A stretch of 64,000 nt of DNA from Acidobacteriota bacterium (GTDB lineage: Bacteria > Acidobacteriota > Vicinamibacteria > Vicinamibacterales > UBA2999), in assembly GCA_963169195.1 (NCBI GenBank), contig CAUJDN010000052.1, positions 1 through 64,000 of the forward strand, written 5' to 3'. The first letter of the stretch is position 1. Each line of letters begins with the position of its first letter. This document shows positions 18,186 through 22,581 of the stretch, piece by piece. The position numbers and the translations under genes are program-made. The notes below the pieces were generated by a model, which was not told where the DNA came from, did not search any database, and saw nothing but the letters and a program-made list of their open reading frames with translations.

Positions 18186-18752
18186 CTACGGCGCGACCAG
18201 CCCCTTGAACTCGATTCGGACCTGCGGCCCCACCTTCAGCATGCCCAGCATCACCACCGGCGGCTCCACGCCGTAGGCGGTCATGTCGAGCCGCGTGCTG
18301 CCCTCGAGGGCCACGCCGTTGCCGGACGCCTTGACGACCACCGGAAGCGTGACGGGGTGCGACCGGCCCTGGATGGTCATCGTGCCCGAGGCCTGGGCCC
18401 GATCCCCGGCGAGATCGTACTTCTCGATCTGGTAGACGATCTCCGGGAACTGATCGGGCTTCATCGCCTCCATCAGGTGCTCGGTCATCTCGGCGTTCGG
18501 GCACGTGAAGGCCTTGACGGGCACCCGGACGGTGGCGGTCTTGACGCCACCGGCGAAGCCGGGCACTGCCGGCCCGCCGCCGGGCGTGACGGTCATCGTT
18601 CCCTTCACGGTGCACGTCCACCCGCGGATGGTGGAGGTCCCCGAGACGGTGAAGTCCAGGTTCGGCTGCTGCGCGTCGAGGGTGACCGCCCCGGCCAGCC
18701 ACGCGGCCAGGGCGGCCGTCAGACGCGCGGATGTCGCGATCGTCCTTGTCAT
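18186..18752 (-). CDS. Exported YceI-family lipid-binding-like protein
   Basis: Periplasmic lipocalin-like protein of 188 residues. A signal peptide (LTAALAAWLAGAVTLDAQ) is followed by the YceI beta-barrel: LDFTVSGTSTIRGWTCTV, VRVPVKAFTCPNAEMTEHLMEAMK, FPEIVYQIEKY, ASGTMTIQGRSHPVTLPVVV and the final LDMTAYGVEPPVVMLGMLKVGPQVRIEFKG. YceI proteins bind isoprenoid or fatty-acyl ligands. A Cys pair (in GWTCTV and FTCPN) may form a disulfide. It follows the exported FMN dehydrogenase gene by 20 bp on the same strand and may share its transcript. The ligand is unknown. Confidence 0.8.
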   Translation of the reverse strand: MTRTIATSARLTAALAAWLAGAVTLDAQQPNLDFTVSGTSTIRGWTCTVKGTMTVTPGGGPAVPGFAGGVKTATVRVPVKAFTCPNAEMTEHLMEAMKPDQFPEIVYQIEKYDLAGDRAQASGTMTIQGRSHPVTLPVVVKASGNGVALEGSTRLDMTAYGVEPPVVMLGMLKVGPQVRIEFKGLVAP

Positions 18753-18772: not shown

Positions 18773-20182
18773 TCACAACCCGAACCCCAGTCGATTCTGG
18801 CGCGTCATGACGGGCACCTTCCCCTCCATGACGAACTGGCTGTCGATCCGATCGATCGCGGTGGTCCGCGTCTGCCGCATCACCATGCGGAATTCGTCGG
18901 TGAGGATCTCGATCACCTTGTCCACGCCCGGCTGCCCGAACGCACCGAGGCCCCAGACGTAGGGACGGCCGATGCCCACCGCGTCGGCCCCGAGGGCGAT
19001 CGCCTTGAAGATGTCGGCGCCGCGCCGCACGCCGCTGTCGATGAAGACGGGCACGCGTCCCTTCACACCCGCGACGACCTCGGGCAGGCACTCGATCGTC
19101 GAACGCAGGCTGTTCTCCGCGCGCCCGCCGTGGTTCGACACGAAGACGCCGTCGGCGCCGTGCTGCACGGCCAGCTCCGCCTCTTCGCGCGTGACGATGC
19201 CCTTCAGCACCACCTTCATGGGCGTGGCGTCCTTGAGGCGCTTGACGTAGTCCCAGTCGAAGGGATGGCGGGGGCCGGCGGGGCCCTCCACGCCGCGGTG
19301 CATGGGCCGCCGGTAGTCGGGCTTGTGGTTGTGGCAGTTCTGGCAGAGCGCGCCGGTGTAGCCCTCCCGGCCCAGGGCGCGCCGATTGAGCTCGCGGTTG
19401 CTGCCGCCCAGCAGGTCGATGGTCCACACCACCACGGGGCAGCCCAGGCCCGCGACCTTCTTGATCGTGCGTTCCGTGATGCCCCAGTCCGCGTTCGCGT
19501 AGAGCTGGAACCAGTGCGGCTCGCCGCGTGCCTCCGCGATCTGCTCGTAGGACTGGGAGCTCTGGTGCGACTGCATCTGCAGGATTCCGCGGGCGCGCGC
19601 GGCCCGGGCGGCGCCGCTCTCGCCTTCGGTGTGGTACGCCTCGAGCGCGGCCACCGGACAGAGGAACAGCGGCGTGTCCCAGCGGCGGCCGAAGAGCGAT
19701 ACCGAGGTGTCGACCTTCGCGACGCTCGCGCCGAGCCGGCGGGGCCGCAGCTGGAGGCGCATGAACCCTTCCCGGTTCGCGACCCTCGTCTCGAGATCGT
19801 CCACCCCCATGTGCAGGTAGGCCCAGTGCACGGGCAGGTTGTTGGCATGGGCCGTCCGCTCGAGATCCCAGACGTTGACGGCCTCGCTCACCGACTCGAT
19901 CACCTGGCCGCCGAACTGGTCGTCCAGCGCGCTGGCCCCGGGTGCCGTCCCGCCGACCGCCGGCTGCTGGTACGCCATCACCTGGCCGCATTCGGGGCAG
20001 AGCGTCCGGGCCGGCAGGCCCGCGTGGGCGTGGCGCCCTGCCTCGCGACCGAACGCCTGGCGCCAGTCTGCGGCCAGGGCGGGGTAGGCCAGGGCGAGGA
20101 GGGGACTGGTCGCCAGGAACTGGAAGAAGCGCCGACGGCTCTCGCGGGTGATCTCGGCGCGGGGCGGGGTGGTCTCGGACAT
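18773..20182 (-). CDS. Tat-exported FMN-dependent alpha-hydroxyacid dehydrogenase with a CxxCH motif
   Basis: TIM-barrel flavoenzyme of the lactate oxidase/flavocytochrome b2/LldD family, oxidising an L-2-hydroxyacid. SRRRFFQFLATSPLLALAYPALA (residues 15-37) is a twin-arginine signal. Family residues visible are the FMN/substrate Tyr in QLYANADW, VVWTIDL, the Lys of MKVVLKGIV, the catalytic His in VSNHGGR and the phosphate loop GVRRGADIFKAIALGADAVGIGRP. Two Cys motifs are unusual: CPEC (62-65) just after the signal, and CQNCH (280-284), a CxxCH in the variable lid loop of the barrel. The latter could bind haem c after export or, with CPEC, a metal. GGAGACGAAG supports the start. Lactate is the likeliest but not certain substrate. 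Confidence 0.78.
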   Translation of the reverse strand: MSETTPPRAEITRESRRRFFQFLATSPLLALAYPALAADWRQAFGREAGRHAHAGLPARTLCPECGQVMAYQQPAVGGTAPGASALDDQFGGQVIESVSEAVNVWDLERTAHANNLPVHWAYLHMGVDDLETRVANREGFMRLQLRPRRLGASVAKVDTSVSLFGRRWDTPLFLCPVAALEAYHTEGESGAARAARARGILQMQSHQSSQSYEQIAEARGEPHWFQLYANADWGITERTIKKVAGLGCPVVVWTIDLLGGSNRELNRRALGREGYTGALCQNCHNHKPDYRRPMHRGVEGPAGPRHPFDWDYVKRLKDATPMKVVLKGIVTREEAELAVQHGADGVFVSNHGGRAENSLRSTIECLPEVVAGVKGRVPVFIDSGVRRGADIFKAIALGADAVGIGRPYVWGLGAFGQPGVDKVIEILTDEFRMVMRQTRTTAIDRIDSQFVMEGKVPVMTRQNRLGFGL

Positions 20183-21246: not shown

Positions 21247-22581
21247 ATGGTGCGGCTCTCTCGCAGGGCATGGCTCTCCGCCGTCGGCGCTGTCACCGTG
21301 TCGGCCGCGGCTCGTCCGCTGGCCCGTGCCCGTCGTGTGCCCGCCATCGACGCGGTGCGCCTCCGGCGCCGTCTCGAGCACCTGTCCACCTTCGGCCGCC
21401 CGCCGCAGGGCACGTTCGAGTCCGGCGTCAGCCGCGTCGCCTATTCCGACGCGGACCTTGCGGCGCGCGCGTGGTTGATGGACGAGATGCGCGGCGCGGG
21501 TTTGCGCCCCCGCATCGACCCGGCCGGCAACATCTTCGCGCGGTGGGGCCCGGAGAACGGCCGTCCGGCCATTCTGTTCGGATCGCACATCGACTCGGTA
21601 CCGGGCGGTGGCAACTTCGACGGCGATCTCGGCGTTCTCGCCGCGCTCGAGGTGATCCAGGCGTGTCGGTCCGCGGGCGTCAGGCCCCGACGGCCGCTCG
21701 AGATGGTCGTCTGGGCGCACGAGGAGAGCACGGCCTTCGGGCGCGGCACGGCGGCGAGCCGCATCGTTGCGGGCGACCTGAAGGCCGGCGATCTGGACCA
21801 GGTGTGGAACGGTCTTCGTCGCGGGGACGGCATTCGCCGGATTGGGGGCGATCCGTCGCGCATCGACGAGGCCGTGCGGCAGGACGGAGCGTGGCACGGC
21901 TACCTCGAGCTGCACATCGAGCAGGGGGGCACGCTGGATCGCGCGCGCGTGCCCATCGGCATCGTCGAGGGCATCGTGGCCATCCACCGGCACGACGTGG
22001 AGGTGGCCGGCTTCGCCAATCACGCCGGCACCACGCCCATGGACGAGCGGCAGGATGCGCTGCAGGCGGCGTCGAGGCTGGTGCTCGCCGTGCGCGAACT
22101 GGTCACGGCCCGCCAGGGGCGTCAGGTGGGCACCGTCGGTCGCCTCGACGTCGAGCCCAATTCGCCGAACGTCGTGCCGGGCCGCGTGCGCCTGAGCGTG
22201 GAGTTTCGCGACTTGTCGGAGTCCACCCTGGCCGCCATGAACGGGGAGCTGCGCGCCCGCGCCGACGCCATCGCCCGCGACACCGGGACGACGATCACCA
22301 CGACGCTGGCGACGACGAACCCGCCCGCGCTGGCCGACGCCGGCGTGCAGGCCGCCATTGGCCGTGCCGCCGACGCGGCCGGGTTGGAGGCGCGCCGCCT
22401 CCCGAGCGGTGCCGGGCACGACGCGCAGATGATCGCGCGCCTGTGTCCCATGGGGATGATCTTCGTCCCGAGCATCGGCGGCGTCAGCCACTCGCCAAAG
22501 GAGCGCACCAGCTGGGACGACTGCGCGCGCGGCGCGGCGGTGCTGCTCGGCGCCGTGCTGGACGTCGACGCCCGCGCGTGA
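21247..22581 (+). CDS. Exported M20 Zn-dependent hydrolase (N-carbamoyl-L-amino-acid hydrolase / allantoate amidohydrolase family)
   Basis: Two-metal amidohydrolase that cleaves carbamoyl-amino acids, ureido acids or allantoate. MVRLSRRAWLSAVGAVTVSAAA looks like a short twin-arginine or Sec signal. The metal-binding and dimer motifs are SHIDSVPGGGNFDGDLGVLAALE (residues about 117-139, His and Asp ligands), WAHEESTAFG (Glu base), LELHIEQG, GFANHAGTTPMDERQD (dimerisation-domain His), LPSGAGHDAQ and PSIGGVSHSPKE (last His). The 444-residue length includes the signal; cytoplasmic homologues are about 410. Substrate cannot be fixed: allantoate, N-carbamoyl-amino acid and beta-ureidopropionate hydrolases share these motifs. 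Export is unusual for the family. Short repeats follow the stop. Confidence 0.83.
   Translation: MVRLSRRAWLSAVGAVTVSAAARPLARARRVPAIDAVRLRRRLEHLSTFGRPPQGTFESGVSRVAYSDADLAARAWLMDEMRGAGLRPRIDPAGNIFARWGPENGRPAILFGSHIDSVPGGGNFDGDLGVLAALEVIQACRSAGVRPRRPLEMVVWAHEESTAFGRGTAASRIVAGDLKAGDLDQVWNGLRRGDGIRRIGGDPSRIDEAVRQDGAWHGYLELHIEQGGTLDRARVPIGIVEGIVAIHRHDVEVAGFANHAGTTPMDERQDALQAASRLVLAVRELVTARQGRQVGTVGRLDVEPNSPNVVPGRVRLSVEFRDLSESTLAAMNGELRARADAIARDTGTTITTTLATTNPPALADAGVQAAIGRAADAAGLEARRLPSGAGHDAQMIARLCPMGMIFVPSIGGVSHSPKERTSWDDCARGAAVLLGAVLDVDARA

Follow-up and report, generated by a model that had tools for sequence, protein, structure and literature searches.

A 64,000-nucleotide stretch of contig CAUJDN010000052.1 from an Acidobacteriota bacterium (the window) carries on its minus strand a gene for a predicted FMN-dependent 2-hydroxyacid dehydrogenase, followed directly downstream by a gene for a YceI-like exported protein. 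The features at this locus, with residue numbers referring to the enzyme, are:

18189..18752, minus strand: YceI-like exported protein, directly downstream of the enzyme gene (PF04264, E = 9.4e-18)
18773..20182, minus strand: predicted FMN-dependent 2-hydroxyacid dehydrogenase with a CxxCH lid, 469 amino acids (PF01070, E = 6.8e-100)
19130..19132, minus strand: H351, catalytic base (with K327, R354, Y228, and D256), conserved inside and outside the clade
19238..19240, minus strand: R315, candidate haem propionate contact (98/98 in the clade, 2/50 outside)
19256..19414, minus strand: active-site lid or loop 4, residues 257-309 (from the alignment and the AlphaFold2 model)
19331..19345, minus strand: CQNCH, residues 280-284, predicted haem c attachment site (C280, C283, and H284 in 98/98)
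19736..19738, minus strand: R149, clade-enriched arginine that is older than the motif (from the alignment)
19826..19828, minus strand: H119, candidate distal haem ligand (98/98 in the clade, 3/50 outside)
19988..19999, minus strand: CPEC, residues 62-65, lineage-specific (21/98 clade members)
20072..20140, minus strand: twin-arginine-type signal, residues 15-37 (SRRRFFQFLATSPLLALAYPALA), with S15, R16, and R17 invariant in 14 close orthologues

The Pfam profile search of the window protein returns FMN_dh (PF01070) over residues 118-451, and the remaining matches are weak and fall to related barrels. No cytochrome b5 or cytochrome c domain is matched by Pfam, and we therefore withhold the label of a class I cytochrome c. 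The protein also scores far below the cut-offs of the NCBIfam equivalogs for lactate oxidase, LldD, and MftD. The catalytic residues Y228, D256, K327, H351, and R354 are all kept when 98 clade members are compared with 50 other FMN_dh proteins. By its whole-barrel profile match and these residues the protein is a member of the FMN_dh family, and its sequence predicts that it binds FMN and oxidizes a 2-hydroxy acid. A preliminary description of this DNA had reported an exported FMN enzyme at 18773-20182; the coordinates are correct, the gene lies on the minus strand, and the PF01070 match and twin-arginine-type signal agree with that description.

Only 20 bp separate the YceI-like gene from the enzyme gene in the window, and the two genes are likely to share a transcript. 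Of 16 distinct crown-group loci, 13 have the same gene pair. No YceI-like gene was found beside the other, non-crown clade loci examined, which marks it as a lineage-specific partner. Past the YceI-like gene, the window encodes BtpA and a PfkB-like kinase. A further gene on the plus strand (21247-22581) has a Tat-like start (MVRLSRRAWLSAVGAV) and resembles M20-type amidases/peptidases by eye.

Direct translation places CQNCH at residues 280-284, after the strand that ends at D256 and before W310, which is the variable lid of the family and the position given in the preliminary description. C280, C283, and H284 are invariant in 98/98 relatives, with 41 different XX pairs between the cysteines; the only other lid position that is invariant throughout the clade is N262. 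This invariance argues that the motif is not a product of chance. CxxCH is absent from the lids of all 50 FMN_dh proteins outside the clade. The lid predicted to hold the haem has ~44-66 residues. The final AlphaFold2 model (residues 38-469, 109-row alignment, pLDDT 88.7, pTM 0.85) shows residues 278-284, including the motif, as a short helix, and pLDDT values in the lid are 71-91. It supersedes an earlier model built from 14 sequences (pLDDT 64.7), which was too poor in the lid; the row for the Methylobacterium plasmid protein was left out of the alignment used for folding. A search with the model identifies spinach glycolate oxidase (1gox, TMt 0.91) as the closest fold in the PDB. The motif is not surrounded by a cytochrome c fold, which counts against haem c in the lid.

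Homologues were collected at several distances. A scan of a genome collection yielded 14 close relatives, all with CQ[NS]CH. Proteins with ~45-50% identity came from 43 searched genomes of the window's family, and their lids include CGACH, CLSCH, CVACH, CAACH, CKSCH, and CSMCH. The clade sample of 98 is drawn from Acidobacteriota, Gemmatimonadota, and one Methylobacterium; the last sequence comes from a plasmid record of Methylobacterium bullatum and has CTDCH in the lid. Scores in Gemmatimonadota have a bimodal distribution, with a match of at least ~450 bits in 93 of 395 genomes and no more than 355 bits for the other matches. The lids follow the same division, with CxxCH in 49/49 of the distinct high-scoring proteins read and in 0/16 of the low-scoring ones. 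Among Acidobacteriota the clade is present in ~22 of 396 sampled genomes. One genome carries a second copy of the enzyme (L018, alongside L006) in which the frame is broken past query residue 364, through either a frameshift or an assembly error.

Maximum-likelihood trees were built from 80 and 148 rows after the lid columns had been removed. In the 80-row tree all CxxCH rows fall on one side of a single branch with support of 96. The 148-row tree gives the same split with support of 97, and a single motif change suffices, as against a mean of 42.1 on shuffled labels. The motif was thus gained once and never lost in this sample.

The preliminary description offered two readings of the motif, covalent haem c in the lid or a zinc site formed by both CxxC pairs (C62, C65, C280, and C283), and proposed that homologues be aligned to see whether the pairs and the histidine co-vary. 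The CPEC motif is indeed found at residues 62-65 on direct translation, and both pairs occur in the window gene and in most of its crown-group relatives, as a shared zinc site would have it. However, the N-terminal CxxCG is present in only 21/98 clade members, against 98/98 for the lid CxxCH; the other 77/98 keep the lid motif without it. The ~45-50% identical proteins from the 43 family genomes have no N-terminal CxxC pair, and the pair is also missing from L010, from L026, and from every member outside the crown group, all of which retain the lid motif with His284. The two-pair site is therefore no general explanation and cannot be the reason for conservation of the lid motif, and we regard it as barely credible. 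Homologues keeping the cysteine pairs and losing His284 had been named as the outcome favoring zinc, and the alignment shows the opposite: His284 is as invariant as the lid cysteines (98/98), and the N-terminal pair is not tied to the lid motif. The N-terminal CxxCG, a crown-group feature, sits in a low-confidence hairpin of the AlphaFold2 model and may form a zinc site of its own or a disulfide.

Two further residues accompany the motif. H119 and R315 are found throughout the clade, and we link them to the motif because the two nearest rows lacking CxxCH (L060 and L063) lack them as well, with A or I at position 119 and W at position 315. Tryptophan also occupies position 315 in 38/50 non-clade FMN_dh proteins. 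By contrast, R149 and N262 are already present in L060 and L063. In an ungapped alignment, H119 corresponds to Ala140 of flavocytochrome b2, which precedes Tyr143 by three residues. In b2, Tyr143 lines the active site and touches one of the haem propionates when the b2 domain is docked. Since H119 neighbors the equivalent of Tyr143 at the same mouth, it probably serves as distal ligand to a haem that the lid would hold over the active-site opening, giving bis-His coordination with H284. The propionates of this haem may be held by R315, perhaps together with R149. Two other candidate ligands were rejected: M294, in an "RPM" sequence 10 residues after H284, is present in only 66/98 members and is Asn in many Gemmatimonadota, and H286 occurs in 25/98, mostly in the crown group.

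These same residues bear on two haem-free readings of the lid. C280 and C283 could form a structural site for zinc or another metal with histidines such as H119 and so stiffen the lid. A CxxC pair with one or two histidines can bind zinc, H119 is invariant along with the motif, and export of folded metalloproteins is what the Tat system provides. Yet CxxCH with free XX is the signature of haem c, the arginine gained with the motif suits propionates better than a zinc site, and ligation of one zinc by an adjacent Cys-His, here Cys283-His284, is unusual. We consider a lid metal site unlikely. A regulatory or structural C280-C283 disulfide is more improbable still; CxxC can form one in the oxidizing periplasm, and the lid is a mobile loop, but a disulfide leaves the invariant His284, His119, and Arg315, and the exact CxxCH in 98/98 members, unexplained.

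Wherever the N-terminus of a clade row can be read, it shows an RR-type signal and, after it, a hydrophobic stretch; the L059 and L187 sequences are truncated. In nine Gemmatimonadota members (L174, L175, L176, L180, L181, L183, L184, L185, and L188) the signal resembles that of Tat lipoproteins, with RR followed by a lipobox Cys (that of L174 reads RRDFLRWLAASP), so that some enzymes of the clade may be membrane-anchored. The source genome of the window has two TatC genes. It also contains a cytochrome c maturation cluster (L134, contig C31, 5473-12568) encoding a CcmA-like ABC protein, CcmB, CcmC, CcmE, and CcmF, the last fused to a CcmH domain in a protein of 823 residues. The cytochrome c assembly family PF01578 is present in 50/50 clade-bearing genomes tested, which agrees with haem c and lends it weak support; its absence could have refuted haem c. 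Of the attributes of a c-type cytochrome, CxxCH with a conserved His in an exported-type protein and attachment machinery in the genome are both found, and covalent haem is predicted. The twin-arginine-type signal itself counts against haem c in the lid. Tat exports folded proteins and c-haem is normally attached to unfolded segments, which makes a haem c protein with such a signal unusual. In this fold, however, the lid is a surface loop that moves, and attachment after folding is therefore plausible. A precedent is offered by Split-Soret cytochromes c, for which Tat signals are predicted (PMC4429474).

We therefore return to haem c as the preferred reading, and put at roughly three in four the probability that the window gene encodes a Tat-exported, single-chain flavocytochrome c with a lid haem ligated by H284 and probably H119, which relays electrons from FMN to cytochrome c. 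The suggestion of haem c in the preliminary description gains from the invariance of His284, the freedom of the XX positions, the restriction of the motif to an exported clade, and the presence of c-haem maturation genes. In the proposed enzyme, thioether bonds to C280 and C283 would attach the haem, with H284 as the proximal ligand, H119 on the active-site rim as the distal one, and R315 (perhaps also R149) contacting the propionates. A 2-hydroxy acid would be oxidized at FMN through the usual His351 chemistry, and electrons would then leave FMN one at a time for the lid haem, from which a cytochrome c, either soluble or in the membrane, would accept them.

A cytochrome c gene adjoins the enzyme gene in L142 (PF00034) and L116. 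L142 is an unannotated stretch of Methylobacterium bullatum plasmid 1 (4650-5426 and 5809-7104), where the cytochrome c ORF lies just upstream of the lid-CxxCH enzyme. These neighbors are in line with cytochrome c as the acceptor, but they are rare; none occurs in 20 Gemmatimonadota neighborhoods, and a conserved cytochrome c partner gene was rejected for this reason.

Yeast L-lactate:cytochrome c oxidoreductase, or flavocytochrome b2 (1FCB), has the FMN barrel and catalytic residues in common with the lid-CxxCH enzyme. In both, as predicted for the latter, a bis-His haem beside FMN relays electrons to cytochrome c. The haem b of b2, however, is bound non-covalently in a separate N-terminal domain of 86 amino acids, 0.53 nm from FMN (PMC6472588), whereas the haem predicted here is covalent and held by the lid, with no cytochrome domain; the cytochrome b5-like domain of b2 is absent from the window protein in the Pfam search. 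The lid-CxxCH enzyme would work like b2 without being a b2. Glycolate oxidase, lactate oxidase, and mandelate dehydrogenase (PF01070) share the catalytic His, Arg, and Lys, but PF01070 enzymes outside the clade lack the lid motif and have other residues in place of H119 and R315. p-Cresol methylhydroxylase, flavocytochrome c sulfide dehydrogenase, and flavocytochrome c3 transfer electrons from flavin to haem c outside the cytoplasm, as predicted here, but these are FAD enzymes of other folds with a dedicated cytochrome domain or subunit of 74-174 amino acids (PMC6472588). None of the enzymes in that review of cytochrome-carrying flavoenzymes has the haem in the barrel's own lid (PMC6472588). 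Our literature search, which covered sources outside subscription journals, found no account of an FMN_dh-type enzyme with haem c in its lid, and the family is apparently undescribed. A flavocytochrome variant with a lid haem is strongly predicted. We also lean towards the broader view that these proteins form a widespread, undescribed class of flavocytochromes, in which the substrate lid of a TIM-barrel FMN enzyme carries a bis-His haem c and the barrel rim supplies its distal ligand.

If the prediction holds, a flavin dehydrogenase was converted into a cytochrome c reductase by using its flap as a haem holder, without domain fusion. Such a conversion would have arisen once and would now be found in at least two phyla, including ~1/4 of the sampled Gemmatimonadota genomes. 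Use of the Tat-type signal would require the c-haem machinery to attach haem to a loop of a protein that is already folded and loaded with FMN. Two questions become testable: whether a loop in a Tat substrate can receive c-haem once the protein has folded, and how a haem on a moving lid would gate electron transfer from the flavin. So compact an enzyme would suit mediator-free biosensors. Many proteins now annotated as "alpha-hydroxy-acid oxidizing" would be re-annotated as respiratory enzymes rather than oxidases, and would pass electrons directly from hydroxy acids into the respiratory chain.
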